DNA of 64,000 nucleotides from a virus: positions 1 through 64,000 of the IMG/VR virus record IMGVR_UViG_3300014913_000007; one strand, written 5' to 3'. The position numbers were made by a program, and so were the translations under genes. Shown here one piece after another: positions 1,119 to 53,254 of this stretch. The notes below the pieces were generated by a model. The model had not been told where the DNA came from and searched no databases. It worked only from the letters and a program-made list of their open reading frames with translations. Position 1 is the stretch's first letter. Every line of letters begins with the position of its first letter.

Positions 1119-1145
1119 TATCGTCATAATCTCAGAAAACTTTAG
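1119..1145 (-). promoter_or_regulatory. sigma-28-type promoter
   Basis: On the minus strand: TAAAGTTT, 11 nt, GACGATAG. It reads into 901-1083 and the genes beyond, with a 35-40 nt leader containing AAGAGGT. One base differs from the -10 element GCCGATAA at each of two positions. Confidence 0.8.
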
Positions 1146-1147
1146 CT

Positions 1148-1450
1148 TTAAATGTACTGATAGTCATCTACTACATTGTCTATTTTTAATCCAGTACCTC
1201 CGAAATCTTCTTCTCCCAATGGAACTACCTTTAACTCTTTATTATCTTCAGTAACGAATATAAAATCATTTATACTGTTATCTGGTTCAAGTATGTAGAG
1301 TATAAAAAACTCAATCAATTCTCTATTATTCCTATTAGTCCAGCCAGTACATCCTTCTCTAAATACTTCAAATAATGAAAAGCGGTCTGTCACCTCAACA
1401 TCTCTTTCAGTTAGCAACTCTACAACTTTTTCTCTAGTATATTTTTTCAT
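1148..1450 (-). CDS. hypothetical protein
   Basis: 100 aa. Starts MKKYTREKVVELLTERDVEV, a helix-turn pattern that could be a small nucleic-acid-binding head, and then becomes acidic. It follows 1453-1971 by only 2 nt and so shares its transcript. The last codons lie next to the promoter of the following unit. No family recognised. Confidence 0.65.
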   Translation of the reverse strand: MKKYTREKVVELLTERDVEVTDRFSLFEVFREGCTGWTNRNNRELIEFFILYILEPDNSINDFIFVTEDNKELKVVPLGEEDFGGTGLKIDNVVDDYQYI

Positions 1451-1452
1451 AA

Positions 1453-1971
1453 TTATTTAATCTCCACTAATTTATTTGTTTTAACACTATAAACTGGATA
1501 TGGTGCTTTTCCTCCCTTAAACCATTCATTACCAAAGCAGAAAGTTTTATATCCATCCTCAACAATACTCCTTAAATGACCTGCTCCTGGCACACAGGGA
1601 GAGCATAATCCTGCATGGGTATAGTATGGAGACTCTGTTATAAAAATATCGCCGTACTCGTCCAATGCTGCGGTATATTCATGATCATCTAAGATGTTAG
1701 ATGGATTATCTGTATAACCTAATTCATGTCCATCATTAAATGATTCTGCACACTCAGAGCAAGTATATTCATTATCTGATTCTTCTGATTCTGCTAATAG
1801 TTCACCACCACATTCAGGGCAAAACGCCTCACCATACTCAGGAGTGAATTCGTTCAATGCCCATTCAATTAAATCAATATAGGGTATAACTCCATATCTA
1901 ATACCAGTCTGTATATCGATATTGGTCTTACCATGTCCATAATCAATTCCAATTCCAATTACCTGTCCCAT
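1453..1971 (-). CDS. zinc-ribbon-containing phage hypothetical protein
   Basis: 172 aa. Residues around 50-80 hold a CPECGG...CSEC pair typical of a zinc ribbon. A second Cys cluster (GLCSPCVPGAGHL) near residue 120 recalls a conserved phage protein with a CSPCxPGA motif. It starts 8 nt after the upstream gene ends, with a GAGGTAATT site before the ATG. Role unknown; structural zinc binding is inferred. Confidence 0.7.
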   Translation of the reverse strand: MGQVIGIGIDYGHGKTNIDIQTGIRYGVIPYIDLIEWALNEFTPEYGEAFCPECGGELLAESEESDNEYTCSECAESFNDGHELGYTDNPSNILDDHEYTAALDEYGDIFITESPYYTHAGLCSPCVPGAGHLRSIVEDGYKTFCFGNEWFKGGKAPYPVYSVKTNKLVEIK

Positions 1972-1979
1972 AATTACCT

Positions 1980-2414
1980 CTAATTTTCAAGTACAATTAA
2001 AGTATCCTTCTCTGCAACATCTGAATCTACCTGCGCTACTGAGATTGTACCTGTACTAAATGCTATTTGTGTATGTTTAACATATCCAGTAAACCTGAAT
2101 ACTCCATCCTGTACCTGAAGCAGTACGCAATCTAAGTTAGGTGAATCATCTTCTGCTCTTAATTCTTCATACTCTTTAGTAACTCCTTCTTCTGTTACTT
2201 CAGTTAAATTTCCACTAACATAATCTGAGACTGCATAATCAAAAGCAGTTATTTCAAACAATCCAGAAATATCGGATTCCATTTTCATTTCTGATAGTTT
2301 ATCTGACATATACTTAATTCTATCAAGTAAATGCTTATCTATTTCCAGTTTATAGCAAATCTCTAAATCATTATATTCATCTTCTATAAATAAATTTCCA
2401 AATACTGTTACCAT
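1980..2414 (-). CDS. hypothetical protein, paralogue of 7327-7731
   Basis: 144 aa, first gene behind the promoter 2458-2484. It shares the order GNL-IED, CYxLE(I/V), DRIKYMSDK, DCVLL, FRFTGYxKHT and FSTG with the protein at 7327-7731, so the two are paralogues. The shared core looks like a beta-rich domain. Function unknown. GAGGTAATT precedes the ATG. Confidence 0.75.
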   Translation of the reverse strand: MVTVFGNLFIEDEYNDLEICYKLEIDKHLLDRIKYMSDKLSEMKMESDISGLFEITAFDYAVSDYVSGNLTEVTEEGVTKEYEELRAEDDSPNLDCVLLQVQDGVFRFTGYVKHTQIAFSTGTISVAQVDSDVAEKDTLIVLEN

Positions 2415-2457
2415 AATTACCTCTTAAAATAATTAAATGTTTTTCTTACATTAATAG

Positions 2458-2484
2458 TATCGTCATTATCTGGGAAAACTTTAG
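2458..2484 (-). promoter_or_regulatory. sigma-28-type promoter
   Basis: Minus strand TAAAGTTT, 11 nt, GACGATAC, upstream of 1980-2414. It abuts the sigma-54-like element at 2503-2527, which points the other way. Confidence 0.8.
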
Positions 2485-2502
2485 AAGTAATCCGATTATT
2501 TA

Positions 2503-2589: not shown

Positions 2590-3201
2590 TTATCTATTCA
2601 AAAATACCTTTCCATATTCTAGGTAAACATTCTCCTGTGCTTCTATATCTTCTCTTAAACACTCCTCACTCATAGCATAGTCCCACGCCTTCTCTAAGTC
2701 ACTATATAACTCAAGTGATAAGTTAGACCTGAATTCCTCTAATTCGTTCTCCAATTCCTTCAGTAACTTAAAAAGTCTAGGTGTATACCTCCTCCAGATA
2801 TTTGATTCTAAGGACAAGTCCCTAGTATTCTCATGTGAATAATGATTACCAAAATGATTAGTTAGTATGCTTGCTTCCATGCCTTCTGCTTCGATAAGTC
2901 TAATTAAGTGTCTATACTTCCCTTCTGGTAAGTTAGCGTGTTTAATGAATTCTTTCAGCTCTACGTTGGCATTAAAACTAGCTCCATCCCCTTGACTCCA
3001 AAATCCTGAGAATTGAATCTTAACATCATCCATGCCCATGCTCTCTAACTTCTCTTTCCAGTCATCTAGGGTACATTCAAAAATCCACTCACTGTCGTAC
3101 TGGCCTTTGGCTTCTCTTGCCTTTTCCAGTACCTTCTCCTGTGCTTCCTCTGTTAATTCCTCAAACTTATATGTTTCATATTTAATTGTTACTGTTTCCA
3201 T
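2590..3201 (-). CDS. conserved phage protein, antitoxin-like annotation group
   Basis: 203 aa. The start (YKFEELTEEAQEKVLEKARE) and the motif FSGFWSQGDGASF near residue 85 are hallmarks of a protein common in large phages, sometimes annotated as an antitoxin of a stability system; that label is weakly founded. The rest is helical and acidic. Single-gene unit: sigma-28-type promoter 3240-3266 upstream, terminator 2540-2575 downstream. Confidence 0.75.
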   Translation of the reverse strand: METVTIKYETYKFEELTEEAQEKVLEKAREAKGQYDSEWIFECTLDDWKEKLESMGMDDVKIQFSGFWSQGDGASFNANVELKEFIKHANLPEGKYRHLIRLIEAEGMEASILTNHFGNHYSHENTRDLSLESNIWRRYTPRLFKLLKELENELEEFRSNLSLELYSDLEKAWDYAMSEECLREDIEAQENVYLEYGKVFLNR

Positions 3202-3239: not shown

Positions 3240-3266
3240 TATCGTCAGATTCCCAGAAAACTTTAA
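3240..3266 (-). promoter_or_regulatory. sigma-28-type promoter
   Basis: Minus strand TAAAGTTT, 11 nt, GACGATAT, 40 nt upstream of 2590-3201. It touches the stop codon of the preceding gene. Confidence 0.8.
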
Positions 3267-3803
3267 CTATTTCTTAGTAAGCTCCTCAATAGCTTCCTCT
3301 AATTCTTTCTTTGTTACCTCAATGTTTCCATGTACGATAGGTTTTTCAATTAAACATCCTTTTATATAATTCTGTAAAGCTCTAGCGTCTGATTGCATAT
3401 CATTCCACATATTCAGAATTTCCTTATCCTCCTGTGCTTCATGTACTTCACCATATATTAAATATACTACATCCTTACACTGTTCTGATTCTTTAGAAGT
3501 AGTTAATTCCTTTAGTAGTAGCTCCTCATCATCCACCTCTGAAAAATAGTCATATAGTATGTAATCTTTAACAATCTCCTCTACAGAAGGAATATTAGCC
3601 TCACTAAACTTATCTACAAAAGCTGTAGCCTTCTCTTTAGTGTTAAAGTCTGCTATACATGAAGCTAACCCTTCACTTGTTCTAAGGTACACACTGAACA
3701 TATCCGCATCTTTTTCATCACATACTGCCATACTTTCACAAGTATCGTGGTGTACTGCTTCTACTTCTATCTGTACTGTTATCTGTTTGGTATATAAACT
3801 CAT
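3267..3803 (-). CDS. hypothetical acidic protein
   Basis: 178 aa. Begins with a beta-like segment (YTKQITVQIEVEAVHHDTC) and continues as acidic helices ending EVTKKELEEAIEELTKK. It overlaps 3800-4084 by 4 bp, so both are read from the promoter at 4119-4145. No family recognised. Confidence 0.7.
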   Translation of the reverse strand: MSLYTKQITVQIEVEAVHHDTCESMAVCDEKDADMFSVYLRTSEGLASCIADFNTKEKATAFVDKFSEANIPSVEEIVKDYILYDYFSEVDDEELLLKELTTSKESEQCKDVVYLIYGEVHEAQEDKEILNMWNDMQSDARALQNYIKGCLIEKPIVHGNIEVTKKELEEAIEELTKK

Positions 3804-4084
3804 AAAATATCCTCTGTTACAGTAGTCAGGTACTTATTAATAACATAGTATTCTTCTTTTTTTATTTCATCCATTGTAATTGCTTTTGCTATGATACAGC
3901 CACAATCAAACTCTGCCATGTTCTTTTCTTTGGCATCCCACCATTCTCCTTCACCTCTCCAATTCAATACTATAGCTTCTAGTACCTTATCAGCTAAATC
4001 CTTTGTTTCTTCTCTCATTAGAAAACTTGTGGTAAAGGAATACTCACCAGATGTTTCTTCAATTTTACAAAAATAATGTTTCAT
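3800..4084 (-). CDS. hypothetical protein
   Basis: 94 aa. MKHYFCKIEETSGEYSFTTSF is a beta-strand start, followed by a helix and the segment FDCGCIIAKAITMDEIKKEEYY; this resembles a small conserved protein of phages and Gram-negatives of unknown role. First gene of its unit; GAGGTACT lies before the ATG. Confidence 0.65.
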   Translation of the reverse strand: MKHYFCKIEETSGEYSFTTSFLMREETKDLADKVLEAIVLNWRGEGEWWDAKEKNMAEFDCGCIIAKAITMDEIKKEEYYVINKYLTTVTEDIL

Positions 4085-4118: not shown

Positions 4119-4145
4119 TATCGTCAGATCCCAGAAATACTTTAG
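4119..4145 (-). promoter_or_regulatory. sigma-28-type promoter
   Basis: Minus strand TAAAGTAT, 11 nt, GACGATAG, reading into 3800-4084. Confidence 0.75.
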
Positions 4146-4503: not shown

Positions 4504-4932
4504 TTACCAGTATAAACCATTTACCTTAACTTGCTCATAAACATCCCTCTGAAGTTCTGAATAGCCCTCATCGGTATCTAACTCATAATCACTTAGTTCT
4601 ATACCTAAGTCATCTAAATCAAGGGCATCAATTCTTAGAATATCATGTTTATCTACTTTAATTTCCTCAGCATAAAGAGACATACACTCCCCAACCTCAT
4701 TCATAATAATATCGTCTATTTCTTCACGCCTCTCTTCTAATACTGAGTCCCAATCTTTATATTGTTGATCAAAAGTTATCCAGTCCAGTTCACAACTGGC
4801 TCTAATATCACACAGGTGTACTTTCCTGTTAACATCAACCAGAAAACTAGTTACTATCTTATCTAGTTCTGGCATATCTGTCATATTCCAATATCTCTCA
4901 TGCATATGTATTAACTTAAATTCCGGTTTCAT
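4504..4932 (-). CDS. hypothetical acidic protein
   Basis: 142 aa with many Asp/Glu. Starts MKPEFKLIHMHERYW; the middle (WDSVLEERREEIDDIIMNEVGECMSLY) is helical. First gene behind the promoter 4967-4993, with GAGGTAGTT before the ATG. No family recognised. Confidence 0.7.
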   Translation of the reverse strand: MKPEFKLIHMHERYWNMTDMPELDKIVTSFLVDVNRKVHLCDIRASCELDWITFDQQYKDWDSVLEERREEIDDIIMNEVGECMSLYAEEIKVDKHDILRIDALDLDDLGIELSDYELDTDEGYSELQRDVYEQVKVNGLYW

Positions 4933-4966: not shown

Positions 4967-4993
4967 TATCGTCGATATCTCAGAAAACTTTAG
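4967..4993 (-). promoter_or_regulatory. sigma-28-type promoter overlapping an upstream gene end
   Basis: Minus strand TAAAGTTT, 11 nt, GACGATAT. The -35 box also encodes the last residues (AKVF, stop) of 4980-5228, so coding and promoter sequence are shared. Confidence 0.8.
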
Positions 4994-5230: not shown

Positions 5231-5422
5231 TTACCTCTTGATTAGTTTATTAACCTTTGCAAACTTCTCAGGAAATCCTGGGAGACTATGCTTCAAAAAT
5301 TTATTCTCTTTTATGATACCTATTGCTTCCTTTAGTGCTTCTTTTTCAGTATTTGCTTTAACATTAGGAATCATTATATTATTGTGAGATCCTTGAGAAA
5401 TCATTACATTATATTTATTCAT
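5231..5422 (-). CDS. small protein, possible DpnD/PcfM-like fold
   Basis: 63 aa. MNKYNVMISQGSHNNIMIPN plus VKANTEKEALKEAIGIIKEN repeats the strand then EKEAL-helix design seen at 274-891, suggesting another member of that small family. First gene behind the promoter 5468-5494; GAGGTAGTT precedes the ATG. Confidence 0.65.
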   Translation of the reverse strand: MNKYNVMISQGSHNNIMIPNVKANTEKEALKEAIGIIKENKFLKHSLPGFPEKFAKVNKLIKR

Positions 5423-5467: not shown

Positions 5468-5494
5468 TATCGTCAATATATTAGAAAACTTTAA
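5468..5494 (-). promoter_or_regulatory. sigma-28-type promoter
   Basis: Minus strand TAAAGTTT, 11 nt, GACGATAA, serving 5231-5422. A same-direction sigma-54-like element lies 47 nt further upstream at 5541-5564. Confidence 0.8.
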
Positions 5495-6232: not shown

Positions 6233-6538
6233 TTAGCCCTTCAGACTCTTTATAAAATGAACACAGCACTCGTCCTCACTTACCTCTAAATCCTTCCTGA
6301 AGCCTCCCTGACCGCAAGCATCACATTCATAATAGATATGAAGCTTCATATCATCATCTACCAGACATACTTGAAAATCATCATTAACTAGGTAGACACT
6401 ACCTGACAGTTGATTAAAGTGGGGGCGTACTCCTTCGCTAGAGAATCCATCTGGTAAACCATTCTCTTTCATAGCTGTTAGGATGCTTATTAACTCCTCT
6501 AACTCTGTGTATCTATAATCCTCTAAGTTACTTGTCAT
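6233..6538 (-). CDS. hypothetical protein with Cys pair
   Basis: 101 aa. ELEELISILTAMKENGLPDGF is a helix; later CDACGQGG gives a CxxC pair and DECCVHFIK two more Cys, possibly binding zinc. First gene of the operon behind the promoter 6601-6627, GAGGTAATT before the ATG. Confidence 0.65.
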   Translation of the reverse strand: MTSNLEDYRYTELEELISILTAMKENGLPDGFSSEGVRPHFNQLSGSVYLVNDDFQVCLVDDDMKLHIYYECDACGQGGFRKDLEVSEDECCVHFIKSLKG

Positions 6539-6600: not shown

Positions 6601-6627
6601 TATCGACAGAATCTTGGAAAACTTTAG
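6601..6627 (-). promoter_or_regulatory. sigma-28-type promoter
   Basis: Minus strand TAAAGTTT, 11 nt, GTCGATAT, serving 6233-6538, with a tandem sigma-54-like element upstream at 6649-6671. Confidence 0.8.
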
Positions 6628-7292: not shown

Positions 7293-7319
7293 TATCGCCA
7301 GATTCTCAAAATACTTTAG
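7293..7319 (-). promoter_or_regulatory. sigma-28-type promoter
   Basis: Minus strand TAAAGTAT, 11 nt, GGCGATAT, upstream of 7123-7242. Confidence 0.7.
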
Positions 7320-7946: not shown

Positions 7947-8174
7947 TTAATCCTCTTTAATACTTAAAATTTCCTGTAACTCTCTCAATATCCCATACCT
8001 TTCAGATACACTACTAGCAAAATTAGAACTGAATGGATTACCATGAAACTGATTTTTTCTAGCTCTCTTAATAGTCATTTCTAGGGTATCTATAATAGCT
8101 TTACATTCATACACATATTGCTTCAATTCCTGTTTATAACTCATTTCTACATATTCTTTAATTCTATTAGCCAT
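7947..8174 (-). CDS. hypothetical helical protein
   Basis: 75 aa: long charged helix (YKQELKQYVYECKAIIDTLE) and a second one at the C-terminus (YGILRELQEILSIKED). First gene of a three-gene unit; only a weak sigma-28-type site (8206-8232) and the sigma-54-like element 8291-8313 point at it. Confidence 0.65.
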   Translation of the reverse strand: MANRIKEYVEMSYKQELKQYVYECKAIIDTLEMTIKRARKNQFHGNPFSSNFASSVSERYGILRELQEILSIKED

Positions 8175-8205: not shown

Positions 8206-8232
8206 TATCGGCTGTATTCCATATTACTTGAG
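8206..8232 (-). promoter_or_regulatory. weak sigma-28-type promoter
   Basis: Minus strand has GCCGATA preceded at the usual distance by TCAAGTAA in place of TAAAGTTT. Right place for 7947-8174 but a poor -35 box. Confidence 0.4.
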
Positions 8233-8330: not shown

Positions 8331-8359
8331 CTTAAGTTTTCAAATAAGATGCCGATACT
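8331..8359 (+). promoter_or_regulatory. sigma-28-type promoter without a downstream gene
   Basis: TTAAGTTT, 11 nt, GCCGATAC. It reads right into 570 bp without an open frame, so it would make a non-coding RNA. Confidence 0.65.
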
Positions 8360-9499: not shown

Positions 9500-9772
9500 T
9501 TACATGAACCTCATAATGAACCAATTAATATTATGTCCTCTCAGTGGTAAATAACCAGGTCTTGATGCATTAAGATACCACATTGCTCCATCACATACAT
9601 GGCTAATATAAATTTCGTCCACTATGTAAGAAAGGCCATAGTAAGAAAAGAGTAAGCATTCCTTGCCTTCGAGTTCTTTCCAAAAATCTGCGGGGAGAGT
9701 ATCAACAAGATCTCCTAATTGATAAGTAGCCTTCTTTTGATAATACTTAAACGTTTCCGTAGTTATCTTCAT
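9500..9772 (-). CDS. small W-x-x-x-R family protein
   Basis: 90 aa. MKITTETFKYYQKKATYQLG, then WKELEGKECLLFSYYGLSYI, ending NWFIMRFM: the family plan of an N-terminal FxxY helix, a G-K-x-Y/C-L-L-F strand and a C-terminal W-F-x-x-R. The ATG lies 8 nt from the -10 element of promoter 9781-9807, so the mRNA is probably leaderless. Confidence 0.75.
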   Translation of the reverse strand: MKITTETFKYYQKKATYQLGDLVDTLPADFWKELEGKECLLFSYYGLSYIVDEIYISHVCDGAMWYLNASRPGYLPLRGHNINWFIMRFM

Positions 9773-9780: not shown

Positions 9781-9807
9781 TATCGGCAGTTTGCCAGGAA
9801 ACTTTAG
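9781..9807 (-). promoter_or_regulatory. sigma-28-type promoter
   Basis: Minus strand TAAAGTTT, 11 nt, GCCGATAC; one base off consensus. Leaderless configuration with 9500-9772. Confidence 0.85.
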
Positions 9808-10194: not shown

Positions 10195-10222
10195 TATCGG
10201 CATCGGGCGGGAATAACTTTAG
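10195..10222 (-). promoter_or_regulatory. sigma-28-type promoter
   Basis: Minus strand TAAAGTTA, 12 nt, GCCGATAC, directly upstream of 9860-10186. Confidence 0.75.
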
Positions 10223-11201: not shown

Positions 11202-11228
11202 TATCGGCACAATTCACATAAACTTTAG
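11202..11228 (-). promoter_or_regulatory. sigma-28-type promoter
   Basis: Minus strand TAAAGTTT, 11 nt, GCCGATAC, with a tandem sigma-54-like element upstream (11255-11277). Confidence 0.85.
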
Positions 11229-12842: not shown

Positions 12843-12869
12843 TATCGGCATATTCTCAGAAAACTTTAG
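12843..12869 (-). promoter_or_regulatory. sigma-28-type promoter
   Basis: Minus strand TAAAGTTT, 11 nt, GCCGATAC; reads into 12589-12819, here with a leader and ribosome binding site. Confidence 0.85.
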
Positions 12870-13744: not shown

Positions 13745-13775
13745 CTAAAGTTATTTAAAAATATGCCGATATACT
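13745..13775 (+). promoter_or_regulatory. sigma-28-type promoter (duplicated at 53224)
   Basis: TAAAGTTA, 11 nt, GCCGATAT. It lies inside an 80-bp stretch (13745-13824) identical to 53224-53303. ATG of 13780-14007 is close behind, leaderless. Confidence 0.85.
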
Positions 13776-13779
13776 AGAT

Positions 13780-14907: not shown

Positions 14908-14934
14908 TATCGGCAGGACCCCAAAAAACTTTAG
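14908..14934 (-). promoter_or_regulatory. sigma-28-type promoter
   Basis: Minus strand TAAAGTTT, 11 nt, GCCGATAT; one base off the sigma-28 consensus. Confidence 0.85.
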
Positions 14935-15723: not shown

Positions 15724-15754
15724 CTAAAGTTTTTATAGAATCTGCCGATATACT
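15724..15754 (+). promoter_or_regulatory. sigma-28-type promoter
   Basis: TAAAGTTT, 11 nt, GCCGATAT. The ATG right behind it opens only four codons, so the product is a structured leader or small RNA. Confidence 0.8.
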
Positions 15755-16606: not shown

Positions 16607-16638
16607 CTAAAGTCTTTTTGAAATCTTGTCGATAGTAT
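16607..16638 (+). promoter_or_regulatory. sigma-28-type promoter
   Basis: TAAAGTCT, 12 nt, GTCGATAG; ATG of 16643-16897 close behind. Confidence 0.65.
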
Positions 16639-17840: not shown

Positions 17841-17866
17841 TATCGACCAAATTTCAAAAAACTTAA
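17841..17866 (-). promoter_or_regulatory. sigma-28-type promoter, weaker
   Basis: Minus strand TTAAGTTT-like box and GTCGATAA just upstream of the ATG at 17832; the -35 lacks one A. Confidence 0.55.
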
Positions 17867-18352: not shown

Positions 18353-18379
18353 TATCGTCAGTATTTCAGAAAACTTTAG
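18353..18379 (-). promoter_or_regulatory. sigma-28-type promoter
   Basis: Minus strand TAAAGTTT, 11 nt, GACGATAG, 213 nt from the next start codon. Confidence 0.8.
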
Positions 18380-18399: not shown

Positions 18400-18430
18400 C
18401 TAAAGTCTATTTAGCAAGTTGCCGATATTA
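18400..18430 (+). promoter_or_regulatory. sigma-28-type promoter
   Basis: TAAAGTCT, 12 nt, GCCGATAT; divergent from 18353-18379. Confidence 0.7.
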
Positions 18431-19210: not shown

Positions 19211-19393
19211 ATGGAGTCAATACTGGTACATTTTATGTTTTATTTCATCTTAATCTTCTTCTGTGGTACAGGTGCCTATATCATAGCTAATATGGGAGAT
19301 GAACTACCCTCAGAAAGGTTTTATTTATTTGATGTATTAGGTATTATAGCTGCAATTCTCCTAATACTGCTATTCTTAATCTTCATCTACTAA
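19211..19393 (+). CDS. small two-span membrane protein
   Basis: 60 aa. LVHFMFYFILIFFCGTGAYI and LGIIAAILLILLFLIFIY are two hydrophobic spans joined by an acidic loop (GDELPSERF). It converges with the RuvB-like gene and overlaps its 3' end by 18 bp. Function unknown. Confidence 0.6.
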   Translation: MESILVHFMFYFILIFFCGTGAYIIANMGDELPSERFYLFDVLGIIAAILLILLFLIFIY

Positions 19394-20628: not shown

Positions 20629-20655
20629 TATCGACTATTTTTAGGAAAACTTTAG
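20629..20655 (-). promoter_or_regulatory. sigma-28-type promoter
   Basis: Minus strand TAAAGTTT, 11 nt, GTCGATAA; one base off consensus. Serves the RuvB-like gene. Confidence 0.8.
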
Positions 20656-24250: not shown

Positions 24251-24281
24251 CTAAAGTATTTCTAAAAACTGACGATAATAA
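24251..24281 (+). promoter_or_regulatory. sigma-28-type promoter
   Basis: TAAAGTAT, 11 nt, GACGATAA, then a leader with AGGAGAG before 24312-24713. Confidence 0.75.
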
Positions 24282-25432: not shown

Positions 25433-25463
25433 CTAAAGTTTTCTGAGGATCTGACGATACTAT
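25433..25463 (+). promoter_or_regulatory. sigma-28-type promoter
   Basis: TAAAGTTT, 11 nt, GACGATAC; followed by a leader with AAGGAGAA for 25490-25798. Confidence 0.85.
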
Positions 25464-28584: not shown

Positions 28585-28616
28585 CTAAAGCTTATGGCCA
28601 GTTTTGTCGATATACT
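28585..28616 (+). promoter_or_regulatory. sigma-28-type promoter
   Basis: TAAAGCTT, 12 nt, GTCGATAT, right after the SemiSWEET stop; serves 28644. Confidence 0.65.
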
Positions 28617-30089: not shown

Positions 30090-30116
30090 TATCGTCATAT
30101 TTTCAGAAAACTTTAG
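30090..30116 (-). promoter_or_regulatory. sigma-28-type promoter
   Basis: Minus strand TAAAGTTT, 11 nt, GACGATAT; back-to-back with the rightward promoter 30138-30168. Confidence 0.85.
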
Positions 30117-30137: not shown

Positions 30138-30168
30138 CTAAAGTTTTTTAATAACCAGCCGATAATAC
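30138..30168 (+). promoter_or_regulatory. sigma-28-type promoter, perfect match
   Basis: TAAAGTTT, 11 nt, GCCGATAA: identical to the FliA consensus in every position. ATG of 30173-30562 lies 8 nt beyond the box. Confidence 0.9.
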
Positions 30169-30577: not shown

Positions 30578-30610
30578 CTAAAGTTTTTAAGGAATCTTCC
30601 GATAAATTAT
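30578..30610 (+). promoter_or_regulatory. sigma-28-type promoter
   Basis: TAAAGTTT, 11 nt, TCCGATAA; reads into the operon starting at 30626. Confidence 0.85.
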
Positions 30611-33091: not shown

Positions 33092-33123
33092 CTAAAGTTT
33101 TATTATAAAGTGACGATATTACT
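33092..33123 (+). promoter_or_regulatory. sigma-28-type promoter
   Basis: TAAAGTTT, 11 nt, GACGATAT, ATG of 33127 ten nt beyond. Confidence 0.8.
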
Positions 33124-34623: not shown

Positions 34624-34781
34624 TGGTAAAAAGGTATACTGAAGAATTGAAAGAACTGCTTATTGCTATGATATTGGGTAATATCTCTATCTGGATATCT
34701 CATGACCTATCAGGGTTTGAATGGTTACGTGCAAACTATCGGTATACCTGTAGTTATACTTTATCTTATTATTCAATGTAA
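34623..34781 (+). CDS. possible 52-aa protein with GTG start
   Basis: Starts GTG overlapping the previous stop (TAGTG), MVKRYTEELKELLIAMILGN, ending YTLSYYSM. AAAGGAG lies 10 nt upstream. Hydrophobic middle; function unknown. Confidence 0.45.
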   Translation: MVKRYTEELKELLIAMILGNISIWISHDLSGFEWLRANYRYTCSYTLSYYSM

Positions 34782-35886: not shown

Positions 35887-35916
35887 CTAAAGTTTTGTGA
35901 TATACTGGTCGATACT
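35887..35916 (+). promoter_or_regulatory. sigma-28-type promoter
   Basis: TAAAGTTT, 12 nt, GTCGATAC; serves rtcB. Confidence 0.75.
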
Positions 35917-38048: not shown

Positions 38049-38076
38049 TATCGACAGCTTTGAAAAAAAACTTTAG
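38049..38076 (-). promoter_or_regulatory. sigma-28-type promoter
   Basis: Minus strand TAAAGTTT, 12 nt, GTCGATAC, ATG of the REC-HPt gene about 8 nt beyond. Confidence 0.75.
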
Positions 38077-38401: not shown

Positions 38402-38433
38402 CTAAAGCTTTAGAGGGTCAGCGACGATATACT
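38402..38433 (+). promoter_or_regulatory. sigma-28-type promoter
   Basis: TAAAGCTT, 12 nt, GACGATAT; ATG of cca follows within 7 nt. Confidence 0.7.
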
Positions 38434-42977: not shown

Positions 42978-43009
42978 CTAAAGTTTTCCAAGATTCTGTC
43001 GATAATACT
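42978..43009 (+). promoter_or_regulatory. sigma-28-type promoter
   Basis: TAAAGTTT, 11 nt, GTCGATAA; one base off consensus. Drives 43048 and the kinase. Confidence 0.85.
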
Positions 43010-43836: not shown

Positions 43837-43863
43837 TTTACTATTTTAGGAAGATATCTTAAA

Positions 43864-45450
43864 ATGAAACACATTAAAGATAAGTGTATATCAATATTAA
43901 ATAAATTTAAGGGCAACCCAAATGTAAACTTCAATCCCTTAGACTTTACTCCCAATCCAATTATAGATATTGATTTAAAAGGTAACATTATATATTTGAA
44001 TCCAAACATACAAGAACTATTTCCATCACTATCGCAAGAATCTTTAAGTCATCCATACTTAGAGGATATAGTGAAATGGTTAAGAATGGTACAAAATGAT
44101 ATGTATGCAAAACCACACACTAAATCATGGTTTAGAGAAGTGAAGGTTGATAGTCAATATTATGAACAAGTATTTCAAAAAACACAGAAATCAGGAATAA
44201 CTAGAATATATGGAACCAATATAAGTAAAAAAGTAAATAAGCTTAACAAACTGACTGAGGAAAGGAACCAAGCAAACGAATTAACTAAGTTAAAAAGTGA
44301 GTTCATAGCTAATATGAGTCATGAAATTAGAACTCCTATGAGTGGTATTATAGGAATTGCCGACATTCTACTTGAAACAGATCTAACAAAAAGTCAAAAT
44401 AGTTACTTAGCAATGCTAAAAGACTCTTCTAAACATCTTTTATTTATACTTAATGATTTGCTGGATCTCTCAAAAGCAGAAACTGGCAAATTGGAGGTTC
44501 TAAAAGAAAAATTTAACTTTAATAAATCTATCGGACACTTGGTAGCTCAATTTAAAGTTACTGCTGAGGAAAAAAATCTACAATTTGAGACAACTATAGA
44601 CTCGAATATACCTAAAGAATTGGTTGGTGATTCTGTAAGACTTACACAGATACTGATTAACTTGTTAGGTAATGCTTTTAAGTTCACTCCTGAGAGTGGA
44701 AGTGTATTATTAGAAGTATTGATAGAAAAAGAATTAAAAGATTCAATAATTCTTCAATTTAAAGTACAAGACTCCGGTATTGGAATACCCCTAAATAAAC
44801 AAAAAGATATACTAAAAGCATTTATTCAAGCAGACAGTTCAGTTACCAAGAAATATGGAGGTACTGGATTAGGATTAGCTATTACTAGTTCCCTGTTGGA
44901 GTTAATGGATTCTAGCCTAAAATTAGTAAGTACTGAAGGTAACGGATCAACTTTTTCCTTCTCACTCAAAGTATTGAAACCTGAAAAAAAAGATAAGGAA
45001 GTACCAGTAAATAATGAAGACTTGAAAAAAATACTAAATAAAGCAAAAACGGTTAAAAATACATATGACATATTGATTGTGGAAGATGATGAAGTTAATA
45101 AAAAGATAGCAAACTATGTCCTCGCAGAGGCAGGACATACAGTTAAAACTGCATCAAATGGTTTGGAGTGCATGGAATTAGTAAAGAAACATGTATTTGA
45201 CTTAATACTGATGGACTGTCAAATGCCTGAAATGGACGGATTTGAAGCTGTAACTGCAATACGTCAAAGGGAACGTATACTAGGTGTAAGAGTACCTATT
45301 ATAGCCCTTACAGCCCTTGCTATGAAAGATGATAAAGACAAATGCCTTGAAGTGGGTATGGATGTATATATTAGAAAGCCATTCGAAAAGGTTAAGCTAC
45401 TTAAGATGATAGAAAAATTAATTGAAAAATCTAGAAAAATTGACAAATAG
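43864..45450 (+). CDS. cytosolic hybrid histidine kinase (PAS-HisKA-HATPase-REC)
   Basis: 528 aa, no membrane segment. Residues 26-120 look like PAS (PNPIIDIDLKGNIIYLNP); H-box FIANMSHEIRTPMSGI with H153; N-box LINLLGNAFKFTP; G1 VQDSGIGI and G2 GGTGLGLAI; then a receiver (DILIVEDDEV, phospho-acceptor D451 in LILMDCQMPEMDGF, T/K at ALTA and IRKPF). It can autophosphorylate and pass phosphate H153 to D451 and on to an HPt, such as the REC-HPt protein at 37336. All catalytic residues are intact. Confidence 0.92.
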   Translation: MKHIKDKCISILNKFKGNPNVNFNPLDFTPNPIIDIDLKGNIIYLNPNIQELFPSLSQESLSHPYLEDIVKWLRMVQNDMYAKPHTKSWFREVKVDSQYYEQVFQKTQKSGITRIYGTNISKKVNKLNKLTEERNQANELTKLKSEFIANMSHEIRTPMSGIIGIADILLETDLTKSQNSYLAMLKDSSKHLLFILNDLLDLSKAETGKLEVLKEKFNFNKSIGHLVAQFKVTAEEKNLQFETTIDSNIPKELVGDSVRLTQILINLLGNAFKFTPESGSVLLEVLIEKELKDSIILQFKVQDSGIGIPLNKQKDILKAFIQADSSVTKKYGGTGLGLAITSSLLELMDSSLKLVSTEGNGSTFSFSLKVLKPEKKDKEVPVNNEDLKKILNKAKTVKNTYDILIVEDDEVNKKIANYVLAEAGHTVKTASNGLECMELVKKHVFDLILMDCQMPEMDGFEAVTAIRQRERILGVRVPIIALTALAMKDDKDKCLEVGMDVYIRKPFEKVKLLKMIEKLIEKSRKIDK

Positions 45451-45468
45451 CTTATAATTTAGTATACT
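45440..45468 (+). promoter_or_regulatory. sigma-70-type promoter
   Basis: TTGACA, 17 nt, TATACT: near-perfect. The -35 lies in the last codons of the kinase gene. Serves the RNA ligase. Confidence 0.85.
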
Positions 45469-45501
45469 ATTGAATAATAACTTATTACTCAGGAGTATAC
45501 T

Positions 45502-46650
45502 ATGTCCAACTTTTCAGCGCCCGTAGTAGAATTCACTATTGAAAAACACCCCAATGCCGACTTACTCTCTATAGCACACGTAGAAGGATGGCAATGTATT
45601 GTAAAGACTGCAGATTTTAAAAATGAAACATTAGGTGTATATGTACCCTTAGACGCTGTAGCAGATAAGGATCATCCTCTACTTGACTTCATGAACGGAA
45701 AGAAGGTAAAAACTATAAAGCTTAGAAAAGTAATCTCTCAAGGTATCTTACTTCCATTGTCCACTGTGGAAAAGTTCGTAAGAAGTAAGGGGTACCAGGA
45801 GACCCTCCAGGTAGGAGATGATTTACATACACTTCTAGAGCTTAAAAAGTGGGAGCCTGTATTTAAGCCTCAAGGACTAAATGTCTCTGGTGGTAGTGAG
45901 GCTTACCTAGAATCTCCTGGATGGATGGGTAAGTATACTGACATAGAAAATTGGAATAATCACCCTAATACAATAAAAGAGGGAGAAATAGTGAGTATTA
46001 CCGAAAAGTTACACGGATCCAGTGCAAGATACGGAATCGTGGATGGTGAATTCTACGTAGGTTCTAGGAATAGAATTTTAAGGTTAGATCCATACATCTC
46101 AAGAATGGATCAACGTAAATGGGATTCACGACCTTTCTTTCAAAGATTCAAGGATTTTATATTGAGAAAGAAAGTTAAACTTACTACACCTAGGGAAACA
46201 GTCTGGACTAAGATAGCTAGAAAACAAGGAATACGTAGTAAACTAAGGTATTTATCCTTTAACTTTGCGGAAGGTGGTAATGTAGCTATTTACGGTGAAA
46301 TAGTTGGTCCTGGGGTACAGGATCTTGAATACGGACTAGAGGAAGTAGATCTATACCTTTACGATATAAGAATTGAAGGTAGGAGTGGAGATAAATACAT
46401 AAGTCCTCCAGAGTTTAGGGAAATGGCAGGTAATATCAAGCTAAAAACTGTACCACTATTGAAGGAAGGCCCTTTCGAATTAGCTGATTTGGAGCTTAGG
46501 AAGGGTAAAGACACTATTAATACTAAGCATGTGCGAGAAGGTATCGTTATAGAGCCTACAAAGCTTCAGTTTGACAAGGGATTAGGTAGGGTAATACTTA
46601 AGAGGGTATCAGAAAATTACCTTCTTAGAAAGAATGGGACTGACTATTAA
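45502..46650 (+). CDS. RNA ligase (Rnl5/DRB0094-like)
   Basis: 382 aa. Residues 1-120 form an OB-like domain (FTIEKHPNADLLSIAHVEGW); the nucleotidyltransferase domain follows with nucleophile K169 in ITEKLHGSSARYG, then FYVGSRN (motif III-like), NVAIYGEIVGPG (motif IIIa/IV) and EGIVIEP plus ILKRVS (motif V). This is the ATP-dependent ligase group typified by Deinococcus RnlA/DRB0094, which seals 3'-OH/5'-phosphate nicks in RNA. It complements RtcB, which joins other ends. Confidence 0.85.
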   Translation: MSNFSAPVVEFTIEKHPNADLLSIAHVEGWQCIVKTADFKNETLGVYVPLDAVADKDHPLLDFMNGKKVKTIKLRKVISQGILLPLSTVEKFVRSKGYQETLQVGDDLHTLLELKKWEPVFKPQGLNVSGGSEAYLESPGWMGKYTDIENWNNHPNTIKEGEIVSITEKLHGSSARYGIVDGEFYVGSRNRILRLDPYISRMDQRKWDSRPFFQRFKDFILRKKVKLTTPRETVWTKIARKQGIRSKLRYLSFNFAEGGNVAIYGEIVGPGVQDLEYGLEEVDLYLYDIRIEGRSGDKYISPPEFREMAGNIKLKTVPLLKEGPFELADLELRKGKDTINTKHVREGIVIEPTKLQFDKGLGRVILKRVSENYLLRKNGTDY

Positions 46651-46946
46651 TGACTGATAAAAAGATACCACTAATCTATGGACATAATTCAGTAGGTGTT
46701 GACAGAGGTATAGCCATAAGAATTAGAACTGAATCAGATTACATATCTAAGCTGTGTAAGATGTTTGAGCAGAACTTTGATGCTAGAACTAACCAACTAA
46801 TAAGTGCTTATAATAAAGTAGAGAATATTAAGGATAAACTTGAAGAATTGAAAAGATTACTTAAGACTGGAGCACCTCAAAAGGATATAGATAGTCTTGT
46901 AAGTAATTTACGTGCTAATATTAAAGATGCAGAGGACCTAATATAA
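46650..46946 (+). CDS. hypothetical coiled-coil protein
   Basis: 98 aa. Second half is a coiled coil (NKVENIKDKLEELKRLLKTG). Overlaps the ligase stop by 1 bp and the next start by 1 bp, so the three are translationally coupled. Function unknown. Confidence 0.65.
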   Translation: MTDKKIPLIYGHNSVGVDRGIAIRIRTESDYISKLCKMFEQNFDARTNQLISAYNKVENIKDKLEELKRLLKTGAPQKDIDSLVSNLRANIKDAEDLI

Positions 46947-47248
46947 TGAGTGACAACGGATATAAAAAAGAAAAGCTGGACTATAGTTCTTTAGCCAGTA
47001 AAGCCTTCCACAATAAAGATGATGGAGCATTATTCAAAGAAATGCGTATACTTATAGAGAGTAGTAATAAACTTGACAAGTCAAAAATGGGAGAATTTGA
47101 GCAGGTTGAAATAGATAAGCACTTTATAGATTTACTTCAAAACGTCTTCATACCTAGATTACTTGAGAATAATGAACTAGTTACAGATAAATGTGCTGGT
47201 GACCTTTCTTGCTTCATACATGAACTATTTGACGAATTTAACAAATAA
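46946..47248 (+). CDS. hypothetical helical protein
   Basis: 100 aa, helical, with AFHNKDDGALFKEMRILIES and a Cys-containing end. Coupled to 46650-46946. Function unknown. Confidence 0.6.
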   Translation: MSDNGYKKEKLDYSSLASKAFHNKDDGALFKEMRILIESSNKLDKSKMGEFEQVEIDKHFIDLLQNVFIPRLLENNELVTDKCAGDLSCFIHELFDEFNK

Positions 47249-47373
47249 TTACTTGCTATTTCCTTAAAATATTGATATACTTATAATAGGTTATGATTTA
47301 ACTAATTTATTTTAAATTAGATGATGCGGATTGGACTATTTTAAATAGGAGACAAGCAATATAGAAGACAGGA

Positions 47374-47390: not shown

Positions 47391-48488
47391 GTGATCAAAA
47401 CAGATACTATAACTAAAACACCTAAAAAGTCAAAAAAATCAACTACTAAAACAAAAAGCAAAACAAAACCAACTAAAAAAGTAACTAAATCTACTAAGAA
47501 AACTGATTATAAATTTGTAAATTACTTTCAATCAGAACCTCAACTAGACGAAATAACACATAAATCTGACCCAGAAGATATCCTTAATGCTTATGAAAGA
47601 ATTATATGGGTTACAGCTAAAAAACACTACAAAATGGGAAGAACATCTACCGAACTAGAGGATTTAATCGCTCAAGGTCAATTAGGTGTGTGTGAAGCTA
47701 TAAAAAGATACAAAAACCCAAACACTAGACCAAGATATAAATTTCACATGCTATGTTTATATAATATACGTGATTATATCTTTAAGTATTGTATCCGTAA
47801 TGTAAATCAATTAAAAACTCCTGTTTACATTCAAAGAGAACTAATGCATGTAGCTCAAATATTTCAATTAATGAATAACCAAACAGTGGCAGAAGCTATC
47901 TTAAAGAGAGAAGGTCCGTCTACTGAAAGTGAAATAATAGCATTCATCTATGATGAAGATGAAAGATTGCCTTTAAAATCAAAAACTTTTATAAAGAAGC
48001 AGATTAATAAAAAAGTAAATAAAAAAGAATTCGAACAAATATATAATGGAATTATAAGTCATGAATTAGGAAGTAGACACTCCTATGTAAAAAATAATTT
48101 AAGTGATGTTGGGAAAATACTACATATTAAAGAAAAAATTTGGTACACTTTTAAAAGTAATAATATGAAATATGAAAGAGGAATTAAACTTATCCTCTCT
48201 GCTAAACAATCTCAAGACTCATTAGATGCTGCAATACACTCACCCATACCAAAGGAAGTAATAGAACAAAACGTAGCACAAAAACAATTAATAGATCATG
48301 GATCTAAGATATGTGGTAAATTAAACTTTAGAATACTATTTGAAAATAAGTGCATGGATATGAACTATGCAGAAATATCTAAAACACACAATATTAAAAA
48401 AAACATGGTAACGGATATAATCAAAAAATCTATAAAATTATTGCAAAAAGATCCAGTGTTCCAAGAAATGTTTAAGGAGCTATTTTAA
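47391..48488 (+). CDS. phage-encoded sigma-70-family factor
   Basis: 365 aa, GTG start. After a Lys/Thr-rich tail (1-38) come sigma region 2 (about 62-137: LNAYERIIWVTAKKHYKMGR, DLIAQGQLGVCEAIKRY, MLCLYNIRDYIFKYC) and a C-terminal region-4-like helix-turn-helix (MNYAEISKTHNIKKNMVTDI). The middle is longer than in simple group 4 factors. It probably directs host RNA polymerase to a phage promoter class; the sigma-28-type motif is the obvious candidate. Confidence 0.75.
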   Translation: MIKTDTITKTPKKSKKSTTKTKSKTKPTKKVTKSTKKTDYKFVNYFQSEPQLDEITHKSDPEDILNAYERIIWVTAKKHYKMGRTSTELEDLIAQGQLGVCEAIKRYKNPNTRPRYKFHMLCLYNIRDYIFKYCIRNVNQLKTPVYIQRELMHVAQIFQLMNNQTVAEAILKREGPSTESEIIAFIYDEDERLPLKSKTFIKKQINKKVNKKEFEQIYNGIISHELGSRHSYVKNNLSDVGKILHIKEKIWYTFKSNNMKYERGIKLILSAKQSQDSLDAAIHSPIPKEVIEQNVAQKQLIDHGSKICGKLNFRILFENKCMDMNYAEISKTHNIKKNMVTDIIKKSIKLLQKDPVFQEMFKELF

Positions 48489-49528: not shown

Positions 49529-49560
49529 ATTAAAGTTATACATAATAAATGTCGATACTA
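49529..49560 (+). promoter_or_regulatory. sigma-28-type promoter
   Basis: TAAAGTTA, 12 nt, GTCGATAC; ATG of 49565 about 8 nt beyond. Confidence 0.7.
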
Positions 49561-49564: not shown

Positions 49565-50536
49565 ATGGACATAATAAAGAACATACAAGTACCGACTGGA
49601 AACATACTTATAGTATCTGGAGATAAAGGAAACTTAGAATTCCTATCTATTGGGGATTACGGAAAAGAAGCCAATTTGAAGTGTGACGCTTTGGGACTAA
49701 CTAGGGAAATAGGTAAGGTCCAACACGTTGAAATGTTACCACTATCTGAAAAGTGGGTAATAACTGTGTCAACTCAATATGGTTGCTCGATGAACTGTAC
49801 ATTTTGTGATGTACCTAAGGTTGGTCCTGGTATAAATGTGACTCTCGATGATCTTATCCAACAAATATCACTAGGTTTAGGGCTACATCCTGAAGTGAAA
49901 AGTGGGAAAAGATTGAACGTTCACTATGCCAGGATGGGGGAACCTACCTTTAATCCTGAAGTTCTAAGATCAGCCTATGCATTACAACTATTACTAAAGG
50001 ATTTTGATACTGTTCACCCAGTTGTATCCACTATGATGCCCAAAAATAATAAATTCTTAAAGAAATTTCTAAATGAGTGGATGTATATAAAGAATGAAAT
50101 TTTTCAGGGGGAGGCTGGCCTACAGTTGAGTTTAAATAGTACCTGTGAGCAAGAAAGAAAACTAATGTTCTCTGGTAATTCTTTAAGTCTATCAGATATT
50201 TCAGATGTAGTTTCAGCTTATAGACCTAAAGGTAGAAAGATTACACTAAATTTTGCTGTTGCAGACTACACTATAGATCCGAGTGTACTATTGAAATATT
50301 TTGATCCTAAATACTTTATAATAAAACTTACACCTATGCATAAAACTCATACTGCCTTAAAGAACAGTATAAAAACTAATGGAGATTACACAACTTTTTA
50401 TCCATATAAACAACACGAAAAAACACTTAAGTCTGTTGGATATGATGTATTAGTATTTATAGCATCTGTAGAAGAGGACCTAGGTAGAATAACTTGTGGT
50501 AATGCTATACTATCAGGATCTACTCCAGATTACTAA
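49565..50536 (+). CDS. RlmN/Cfr-like radical SAM methylase homologue
   Basis: 323 aa. QYGCSMNCTFCDVPKVGPG has the CxxxCxxC cluster (C74, C78, C81); MGEPTFN matches the GMGEP motif of RlmN/Cfr, and DLGRITCGNAIL near residue 312 matches the C-terminal methyl-carrying Cys (C355 in E. coli RlmN). RlmN methylates A2503 of 23S rRNA and some tRNAs. The second catalytic Cys (C118) is Thr67 here (VITVSTQYGC), so the standard mechanism may not work. Leaderless promoter 49529-49560. Confidence 0.75.
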   Translation: MDIIKNIQVPTGNILIVSGDKGNLEFLSIGDYGKEANLKCDALGLTREIGKVQHVEMLPLSEKWVITVSTQYGCSMNCTFCDVPKVGPGINVTLDDLIQQISLGLGLHPEVKSGKRLNVHYARMGEPTFNPEVLRSAYALQLLLKDFDTVHPVVSTMMPKNNKFLKKFLNEWMYIKNEIFQGEAGLQLSLNSTCEQERKLMFSGNSLSLSDISDVVSAYRPKGRKITLNFAVADYTIDPSVLLKYFDPKYFIIKLTPMHKTHTALKNSIKTNGDYTTFYPYKQHEKTLKSVGYDVLVFIASVEEDLGRITCGNAILSGSTPDY

Positions 50537-51459: not shown

Positions 51460-51577
51460 AGAATTTATACCTCATGCATGTTTTTTACTAAAGCTTATAG
51501 TAATAAGTAAAAATAGAGCTATTTCATACTTATCAAAGGTTATATAGTACTAAAATAACTTTATAATTTCTAGATAA

Positions 51578-51606
51578 TTGCTTCCTATACAAAAATATGC
51601 TACAAT
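51578..51606 (+). promoter_or_regulatory. sigma-70-type promoter
   Basis: TTGCTT, 17 nt, TACAAT. An AAGGAG follows but lies 38 nt from the ATG of 51655. Confidence 0.65.
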
Positions 51607-51654
51607 ATACTTAAGGAGCAATATCAAGTACATAAGTACCTGATACAACTAACT

Positions 51655-52176
51655 ATGCCTAAAATAGAAGGAATATATCTCCGTAAGGACTTAAAAGAGT
51701 ATATTACAGAATCTTTTGTAAAAAGATACTCTATTAATTTAAATAATTGGATAGAACCTTTTGCCTACTGGGATCAGTATAATCAAAGTGTACTAAGTAA
51801 TGGATCTGTTCCTGATGGTACGTATGTATTACTTGGTAACGTAAAATATCCAAGCGTAAATAAACTGTCTTTTCATAATATCTATCAGTTTAATGTTGTT
51901 AGATTATTAGGAAGTGATGTCACTTTCTCTGGGAACTTTAATGAATACGTAGGTTTATCTAAATCAGTTCCACTGAGACCAGTGTTTCCTCTATTTAAGC
52001 TAGATCAAGCACGTTCCTTCAATAAGGCGAGAAATGTATTTATAAGAGAGTTAAACAAACCTTTGACTCATTTAGAATTAAATGCTAAGATAGAACAAGC
52101 AAAACCAGGATCTATAACGGATAAATTATATAGATTAAGATTAGCTTTAGAAACCGATATACTTAAGGAGAAATAA
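51655..52176 (+). CDS. hypothetical, possibly structural protein
   Basis: 173 aa. Helical start, central beta stretch (GTYVLLGNVKYPSVNKLSFH), helical basic end. Paired with 52179. No good ribosome binding site next to the ATG. Virion role is a guess from the neighbours. Confidence 0.6.
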   Translation: MPKIEGIYLRKDLKEYITESFVKRYSINLNNWIEPFAYWDQYNQSVLSNGSVPDGTYVLLGNVKYPSVNKLSFHNIYQFNVVRLLGSDVTFSGNFNEYVGLSKSVPLRPVFPLFKLDQARSFNKARNVFIRELNKPLTHLELNAKIEQAKPGSITDKLYRLRLALETDILKEK

Positions 52177-52178
52177 CA

Positions 52179-52418
52179 ATGGCAACAGATGTAGAAGTTT
52201 TAACAGTAGGTGTTTCAGTTGAGAGTCCTACTTTTGATAGTGATTTAGCACTTGCTATACAAACTGCTATACTAGATTTAGGATCACCTTTTGATACTTC
52301 ATTTGATATAGTTTCAATTACGCCCCTTCCAGGAGGAGGAAGAGCTAAGATAGCGGGGGATTCTAATGAAGCAAAAACTGTTAAATTACAAAGATATACA
52401 GTAATAGTACAGGCTTAA
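52179..52418 (+). CDS. hypothetical small beta protein
   Basis: 79 aa: VEVLTVGVSVESPTFDSDLA, ITPLPGGGRAKIAG, VKLQRYTVIVQA. AAGGAGAAATAAC precedes the ATG. Looks like a single small beta domain. Function unknown. Confidence 0.65.
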   Translation: MATDVEVLTVGVSVESPTFDSDLALAIQTAILDLGSPFDTSFDIVSITPLPGGGRAKIAGDSNEAKTVKLQRYTVIVQA

Positions 52419-53041
52419 AGACTATCTACATATTCTTGTACTGTGATGTAGGGAAATGGGTATGTAATTCCCTTACTATATGCCCATTTTTCTAAAGCTT
52501 CCTCGGAGTTTAGACCTTTCTTAGAACAATTAACTACTCTACTTACCGGAACTAACATTATTCCATTACTAGTTAGTACATATTCTAATTGAAAGGCATC
52601 CTTAGCCCTGTGATTATATCCTTGAAGAGGTACTTTAGAGTAGGCACATTTCCAATCATATCTTTCTAATAAGGTACAAACATCCATATTATCGAATACA
52701 ATGTTTTCAGTGCTCATTTGCTTGTAGAACTTCTTATTCTTAAATCCTGTAGATTCTTTACCTGAATGCGATAAGTTCCACTGGTCATTGTAAAGTCTGT
52801 GATTGATGGAAAGTCTTCTATAACAAGACCTACATAATCCTTTAGCCCAATGTCTGTATTTTTCAAAAGAGTTTCTTGTTTTGCACAGGGAACAACAAAC
52901 AGCTGAATTACTGTTCCAAGGTCCCTCACAGTAAAAGTCACCATGAAAGTATTTCTCTCTCTCCGACATATCTACACTATTATTCACTTTCCACCTCCCA
53001 GTGAGTCTTCCTAATCTATTTCTTCTTGCGACATCTTCCAT
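52415..53041 (-). CDS. zinc-finger and degenerate-HNH endonuclease-like protein
   Basis: 208 aa. CSLCKTRNSFEKYRHWAKGL and CRSC form a zinc ribbon at about 50-75; WKCAYSKVPLQGYN and FQLEYVLTSNGIMLVPVSRV follow the order of phage HNH proteins (C-x-x-S/T-G-x-x-L, L-D-R, N-G-x-x-x-N-x-x-x-V-x-x-x-x-N-x-x-K), but the catalytic Asp/His positions are replaced. Probably a decayed homing endonuclease or one turned regulator. Confidence 0.6.
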   Translation of the reverse strand: MEDVARRNRLGRLTGRWKVNNSVDMSEREKYFHGDFYCEGPWNSNSAVCCSLCKTRNSFEKYRHWAKGLCRSCYRRLSINHRLYNDQWNLSHSGKESTGFKNKKFYKQMSTENIVFDNMDVCTLLERYDWKCAYSKVPLQGYNHRAKDAFQLEYVLTSNGIMLVPVSRVVNCSKKGLNSEEALEKWAYSKGITYPFPYITVQEYVDSL

Positions 53042-53223
53042 TCAAAATTATCTATTGTTGCATTATTATATCTATTATCCATACATATACCATAGTACAG
53101 ACTGTGGGACATAATAAAAAAATGTAGTCGCAAAAGTGAAAAAGTCCTAGTATTTTTATGTAAAATGAATAACTATAATAGGTTATAATATACCTACTAA
53201 ATTAACTTATTACATAAATATAC

Positions 53224-53254
53224 CTAAAGTTATTTAAAAATATGCCGATATACT
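53224..53254 (+). promoter_or_regulatory. sigma-28-type promoter (copy of 13745)
   Basis: TAAAGTTA, 11 nt, GCCGATAT in the 80-bp block identical to 13745-13824. Almost the only sigma-28-type site in the right-hand third. Confidence 0.85.

Follow-up and report, generated by a model that had tools for sequence, protein, structure and literature searches.

Which sigma factor reads the two-box motif that precedes many genes in the left arm of the virus contig IMGVR_UViG_3300014913_000007 (G000, 153,389 bp)? The first 64 kb of this contig, at its left end, form the window, and loci L002–L006 make up the remainder. An earlier note on the window had described about 35 such sites as a genome-wide network of flagellar promoters, used either by the host sigma factor FliA or by a phage sigma factor that copies its specificity. 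The sequence features set out below support well that the sites are sigma-28-class promoters, and they are likely to be early promoters read by the host sigma-28 (FliA) holoenzyme.

The strict search pattern TAAAGTTTN{11,12}GHCGATA is matched 20 times in the window, and not once in 100 dinucleotide shuffles or in the other 89 kb of the contig. Relaxed to TAAAGTTT-N11/12-GNCGATA, the scan of the contig gives 37 sites, 36 of them in the window (positions 1119–53250) and one outside it at 153176. A weight matrix, run over the whole contig and shuffled sequence as the earlier note had proposed (here five shuffled genomes), scores 35 of the 37 sites at 22.9 bits or above, while the best shuffled score is 19.4; the sites at 8206 and 34737 fall below the main score range (Table 1). 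As the matrix was trained on these same 37 sites, the evidence resides in the shuffles and in a remote relative (G001, see below) and not in the fit of the matrix. The number of sites claimed and their coordinates, correct to within one base, are thus borne out. The genome-wide extent is not: apart from the copy at 153176, the sites are confined to a left arm of about one third of the contig and end at 53 kb.

Both boxes resemble the FliA consensus TAAAGTTT-N11-GCCGATAA, which we confirmed in a published source (PMC2859248). In the −35 box TAAA(GTTT), positions 1, 3, 4 and 5 (T, A, A and G) are invariant, position 2 is A in 34/37 sites and the three terminal T residues are present in 35/37, 30/37 and 31/37. 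A C residue immediately precedes TAAAGTTT in 32/37 sites, with an A/T-rich stretch further upstream. The CGATA core of the −10 box GCCGATAA is invariant and its G is found in 35/37 sites, and the spacer is 11 nt at 28 sites and 12 nt at nine. Positions 30139–30164 together with the next A are identical to the published consensus, where a perfect match had been reported at 30138–30168, and all seven sites said to miss it by one base do so (9781, 11202, 12843, 14908, 15725, 20629 and 42979, the fifth and last having been placed at 15724 and 42978). Placement upstream of correctly oriented genes was likewise confirmed: 34 of the 37 sites are mostly intergenic, while the non-coding share of the left arm is 14%, and for 31 a gene start on the same strand lies nearby.

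The distance to this gene start follows two layouts. At 14 of the 37 sites an ATG follows CGATA almost at once, 8 nt downstream at 12 sites and 7 nt downstream at two, and the peak at +8 has a binomial p of about 2e-12. Three of these 14 sites are copies of one duplicated gene for a DUF4116-repeat protein, with near-identical promoter-plus-gene starts at 13746–14007, at 53225–53684 and from 153176 to the right end of the contig, which reduces the independent count to 12. At the other 23 sites the gene start, if found, is further off, and most have a sequence resembling a Shine–Dalgarno (SD) element, typically AGAGGTAATTATG, with leaders of tens of bases. For the CCA-adding enzyme the next in-frame start does not come before codon 54 and the catalytic domain runs from residue 26, and the ATG at 38437 is therefore very likely to be the true start. 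The sigma-28 transcript of Escherichia coli aer begins 6 bp past the −10 octamer (PMC2859248). Combined with an ATG at +7 or +8, this distance predicts mRNAs that are leaderless or carry leaders of 1–2 nt, and judged in this way about 14 mRNAs probably begin at, or within 1–2 nt of, their AUG.

The phage also encodes a ribosomal protein S2 (42024–42908, + strand; PF00318, 2.5e-74), with an ortholog in G001 at 67368–68297 (about 32–34% identity). The main text of two papers on viral ribosomal proteins makes no mention of uS2. In E. coli S2 is required for S1 binding, and leaderless mRNAs can dispense with S1 (PMC3296737); a connection between the phage S2 and the near-leaderless genes is conceivable.

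Two relatives were found, IMGVR_UViG_3300037851_000542 (G001, 260 kb) and a 140 kb contig of the same lineage (G002); queries with the sigma factor, a glycosyltransferase and the DNA polymerase returned these two only. G001 has counterparts for 62 G000 genes at about 23–56% protein identity. Scored with the G000 matrix it contains 34 sites of at least 20 bits, and its shuffles reach no more than 15.0. Most of the sites again fall in a single arm (5–65 kb), with a spacer of 12 nt in nearly all of them and a looser GTTT. The predicted promoter class is retained across this large divergence, and the spacer and the tail of the −35 box shift.

A pattern scan of IMG/VR, in which all counts are lower bounds, recovered several or more contigs that carry blocks of sites and have little protein similarity to G000. 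One has at least 11 sites in 35 kb (G008) and another at least 11 strong sites inside 5 kb, where small genes mostly have one site each (G010). The longer spacer consensus is not shared by any viral contig. In two further contigs a T4-type rIIA gene is surrounded by sites (at least eight in G005 and at least six in G012). The T4 rIIA gene belongs to the early class, and this supports an early timing of these promoters. The primase of a fifth contig, G003, has its nearest match in Bdellovibrio phage phi1422 (35% identity over the full length, E 1e-150), and its helicase and other replication genes likewise match phi1422. Among the matches listed, TTGAC occurs within the sigma-28 spacer at 26 of 132 distinct viral sites, where about 1.2 would be expected, and most of these TTGAC boxes have a TATAAT-like hexamer 16–18 nt downstream (loci L029–L148, for example L060, L066, L067 and L112). 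Such sites look like overlapping sigma-28/sigma-70 promoters, and a correctly placed sigma-70-like −10 element behind the TTGAC is what would be expected if host holoenzymes read them.

Outside the left arm other motifs take over. The intergenic sequence of the right arm contains 18 sigma-70-like sites versus 0.8 expected (left arm, nine versus 1.2), and the right arm and its tRNA arrays carry sigma-70-like TTGACA-N17-TATAxT and TATACTAT motifs. Several of the former precede tRNA arrays, as TTGAC[AT]-N17-TATAGT at 75.7, 85.4 and 89.9 kb, and G000 and G001 both show enrichment of the TATACTAT/TGTACTAT motif in the right arm. With different motifs on the left and on the right, the phage has at least two promoter classes divided by genome arm. 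The left arm holds many short open reading frames (ORFs), an RNA ligase, RtcB and the CCA-adding enzyme; the right arm holds the DNA polymerase, a helicase, ribonucleotide reductase and very large structural-type proteins. This gene content suggests that the left arm is the early one. The right arm of G000 also contains 23 tRNA genes (L002:12211–13618, L003:1754–2261, L003:6757–6907 and L003:8694–9258), and none were found in G001.

In the model that we favour, host RNA polymerase bearing FliA would transcribe the left arm upon entry, where early-type genes would be expressed mostly as one small gene or a short run per promoter. The right arm and the tRNA arrays would be served by the sigma-70-like and TATACTAT promoters, through host sigma-70, the phage sigma factor or both. 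We infer FliA as the reader, the early timing and a dependence on a FliA-active host, either motile or in a state resembling attack phase. Of the two readers named in the earlier note, host FliA is the one favoured, and its assignment of the sites to the FliA type stands at the level of the sigma-28 class, through the boxes, their spacing, position and orientation, the distance to the ATG, the conservation in G001 and the recurrence in other phages. The link that it drew between infection and host motility may hold; sigma-28-group factors also drive programmes other than motility.

Several observations weigh against host FliA as the reader. The second base of the −10 box varies across the 37 sites (C in 15, A in 12, T in nine and G in one) and the eighth is A in just seven. 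The near-perfect match is to the FliA consensus of E. coli, and the FliA of the host is itself postulated. No sampled bacterial genome matches the strict consensus exactly at more than three places, which makes the phage unusually consensus-like. The phage encodes a sigma factor of its own (47391–48488), an ortholog of which occurs in G001 together with the same promoter class. Finally, one point in favour of host FliA carries little weight: among the matches listed, sigma-70 region 2 is not detectable in 13 of 19 contigs with sites, several of which are short; because many of the 19 are fragments, the absence of a sigma gene from them is weak evidence.

This phage sigma factor is the basis of the strongest alternative, namely that 47391 has converged on a FliA-like specificity and reads the sites as middle promoters after its own sigma-70-type expression. 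Besides its ortholog in G001, the apparent sigma-70-like promoter read by eye in front of its gene would fit this order of events. The protein belongs to the sigma-70 family (phrog_351, 1.4e-9; TIGR02937, the NCBIfam sigma-70 superfamily, 34 bits, 2e-8, residues 62–353), with recognizable regions 2 and 4 and a score below the Pfam region 2 cut-off, and it is the sole Sigma70_r2 match in G000. Its kinship is not with FliA. It scores 16.9 bits against the FliA_WhiG family TIGR02479, where the cut-off is 189.6, and 13.5 against the FliA model NF005413 (PRK06986), where the cut-off is 201; in the PDB, RpoD/SigA are the best matches at 1e-6 and FliA is the weakest of those listed. These scores lower the likelihood that 47391 is a FliA, and not the likelihood that it could bind such sites. 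An AlphaFold model from a two-sequence alignment (mean predicted local distance difference test score, pLDDT, of 69) is all helical, with both ends of a sigma factor predicted, and resembles sigma factors generally; fold comparison did not tell SigA, FliA and SigB apart as classes (template modelling score of about 0.2). Against the alternative also stand the unrelated phages that have the same sites and, among the matches listed, no detectable sigma factor, and the different candidate motifs for 47391 in the right arm (TATACTAT/TGTACTATA). On this evidence we consider it unlikely that 47391 is the reader. A Sigma70_r4 match at 151073 was considered as a second sigma factor and rejected, as it lies inside an HNH/homing endonuclease gene and was taken as the DNA-binding part of that protein.

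If a host factor is the reader, it could instead be a sigma-28-group factor that does not serve motility, as with WhiG-type factors or chlamydial sigma-28, and infection would then be tied to a developmental state. Factors of this group share the promoter and run other programmes in some bacteria. In Bdellovibrio bacteriovorus FliA is the master of the attack phase and drives most attack-phase genes, flagellar or not, from TTAAG-N16-CCGATA promoters (PMC3627812). In most bacteria that have it, however, the consensus serves flagellar and chemotaxis genes, and nothing points specifically to a non-motile host; this alternative is accordingly rated as very unlikely. The markers that might name a host do not discriminate. 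The phage histidine kinase matches genomes across many phyla at about 33–45% identity, the phage S2 is about 35–45% identical to the S2 of each group sampled, and the best tRNA match reaches 99.6 bits in Bdellovibrionota, with a Verrucomicrobiales genome at 93.3 and Pseudomonadota at 83.3. No phylum stands out when the exact consensus is counted (24/114 Bdellovibrionota versus 13/120 Pseudomonadota). In bacterial genomes the loose pattern TWAAGN15-16CCGATA gives a noisy signal, with many chance matches; its matches are mostly N16 in three of the four Bdellovibrionota genomes sampled (32 N16, 11 N15) and mostly N15 in Vibrio. As G000 is itself mostly N15 and clear sites were not found in Bdellovibrio phage phi1422, Bdellovibrionota are a lead only.

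That the motif is a dispersed repeat or an operator instead of a promoter is scarcely credible: some copies are duplicated with their surroundings (2458 and 4119 have 30 nt of upstream sequence in common, and 13746, 53225 and 153176 have the gene start in common), but the two boxes keep their spacing while spacer and flanks vary, the sites are oriented towards genes at a fixed distance from the ATG, and the motif is preserved in a remote relative and present in unrelated phages.

Host FliA thus remains the favoured reader of the sites, which are collected in Table 1 with the phage sigma gene. The hybrid histidine kinase at 43864–45450 (+ strand; HisKA-HATPase-receiver) and the receiver-Hpt protein at 37336–38040 (− strand), both encoded downstream of sigma-28-type promoters, form a possible phage-encoded phosphorelay. 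In addition, the helicase gene at 20702–23242 (− strand) is split by an intein-like insertion (Hom_end_hint and LAGLIDADG). Residues 264–649 of a PhoH-like protein of 819 amino acids (L005:14696–17155, G000 138296–140755) match profiles named terminase large subunit, DNA primase and helicase loader; as similar profiles match the intein part of 20702–23242, this segment may also be an intein.

Table 1. Predicted sigma-28-type sites in the window, and the phage sigma gene with its putative promoter. Near-leaderless, ATG 7 or 8 nt after CGATA.
Position	Strand	Element	Spacer	Downstream gene or remark
1119..1144	-	sigma-28-type promoter	N11	SD-led gene
2458..2483	-	sigma-28-type promoter	N11	SD-led gene 1980-2414
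3240..3265	-	sigma-28-type promoter	N11	SD-led gene 2590-3201
4119..4144	-	sigma-28-type promoter	N11 (TAAAGTAT)	SD-led gene 3800-4084
4967..4992	-	sigma-28-type promoter	N11	SD-led gene 4504-4932
5468..5493	-	sigma-28-type promoter	N11	SD-led gene 5231-5422
6601..6626	-	sigma-28-type promoter	N11	SD-led gene 6233-6538
7293..7318	-	sigma-28-type promoter	N11	nearby downstream just a 39-aa ORF
8206..8231	-	weaker sigma-28-type site (17.4 bits)		gene 7947-8174
8332..8357	+	sigma-28-type promoter	N11	downstream ORF not found; possibly small RNA
9781..9806	-	sigma-28-type promoter		near-leaderless gene 9500-9772
10195..10221	-	sigma-28-type promoter	N12	near-leaderless gene 9860-10186
11202..11227	-	sigma-28-type promoter		near-leaderless 83-aa start within longer mechanical ORF
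12843..12868	-	sigma-28-type promoter	N11	SD-led gene 12589-12819
13746..13771	+	sigma-28-type promoter		near-leaderless gene 13780-14007 (short copy of DUF4116 gene at 53259)
14908..14933	-	sigma-28-type promoter		near-leaderless gene 14633-14899
15725..15750	+	sigma-28-type promoter		gene 15875-16060
16608..16634	+	sigma-28-type promoter	N12	near-leaderless gene 16643-16897
17841..17866	-	sigma-28-type promoter		near-leaderless 203-aa gene 17221-17832
18353..18378	-	sigma-28-type promoter, divergent with 18401		clear downstream ORF not found; possibly small RNA
18401..18427	+	sigma-28-type promoter, divergent with 18353	N12	clear downstream ORF not found; possibly small RNA
20629..20654	-	sigma-28-type promoter		RuvB/AAA gene 19376-20572
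24252..24277	+	sigma-28-type promoter		SD-led gene 24312-24713
25434..25459	+	sigma-28-type promoter		SD-led gene 25490-25798
28586..28612	+	sigma-28-type promoter	N12	SD-led gene 28644-28856
30090..30115	-	sigma-28-type promoter, divergent with 30139
30139..30164	+	perfect FliA consensus		near-leaderless gene 30173-30562
30579..30604	+	sigma-28-type promoter (TCCGATA)		SD-led gene 30626-30928
33093..33118	+	sigma-28-type promoter		near-leaderless gene 33127-33426
34737..34763	-	weaker sigma-28-type site (17.1 bits)		doubtful
35888..35914	+	sigma-28-type promoter	N12	RtcB gene 35946-37133
38049..38075	-	sigma-28-type promoter	N12	near-leaderless receiver+Hpt gene 37336-38040
38403..38429	+	sigma-28-type promoter	N12	near-leaderless CCA-adding enzyme 38437-39771
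42979..43004	+	sigma-28-type promoter		gene run 43048-47248 (DUF932, hybrid histidine kinase, RNA ligase)
49531..49557	+	sigma-28-type promoter	N12	near-leaderless radical-SAM gene 49565-50536
53225..53250	+	sigma-28-type promoter		near-leaderless DUF4116 gene 53259-53684; final left-arm site
47391..48488	+	sigma-70-family phage factor (365 aa), not FliA class
47253..47281	+	sigma-70-like promoter TTGCTA-N17-TATACT, read by eye	N17	immediately 5' of sigma gene

Phage early genes are usually assumed to rely on the housekeeping sigma factor of the host. Use of a host sigma factor by a phage is known; here the factor would be the flagellar one and the use would be at network scale, and no phage reported to have a FliA-type (sigma-28) promoter network turned up in the open-licence literature. 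That unrelated contigs carry the sites too points to a general strategy. Tentatively, it is possible that large phages gate their early programme on host sigma-28 in a widespread and unreported manner, with expression only in cells dominated by FliA, such as swarmers or predatory Bdellovibrionota in attack phase; some would hedge through overlapping sigma-28/sigma-70 promoters, and the present lineage would add near-leaderless mRNAs and its own S2. If so, infection would depend on the state of the cell, motile or not, through transcription and not through receptors, which would provide a testable mechanism for infection that varies with cell state and a new way to approach the hosts of uncultured phages.

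Compared with the FliA promoters of E. coli and Salmonella, the sites have in common TAAAGTTT-N11-GCCGATAA, the spacing and, by prediction, a start about 6 bp past the −10 octamer (PMC2859248), and they differ in being phage-borne, present in dozens and placed mostly one per small gene, with many near-leaderless genes, common 12 nt spacers and a variable second −10 base. The attack-phase regulon of B. bacteriovorus likewise extends sigma-28 globally beyond flagella, and its TTAAG-N16-CCGATA spacing is that of G001 (PMC3627812). That regulon is cellular, however, whereas G000 is mostly N15 with TAAAG, and Bdellovibrio phage phi1422 lacks clear sites. In the T4-type scheme early promoters are read through the host sigma factor and late promoters through a phage sigma factor. 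Many singly promoted small early genes, an AT-rich motif in the other arm and one phage sigma factor are common to both; here, the early promoters would be of the sigma-28 and not the sigma-70 class, and the late assignment is a prediction. Phages that encode FliA-, SigF- or SigG-like sigma factors, for example Bacillus phages, share the link to an alternative-sigma programme, but there the phage supplies the sigma factor, whereas in G000 it is the promoters that belong to the alternative class, and its sigma factor does not.

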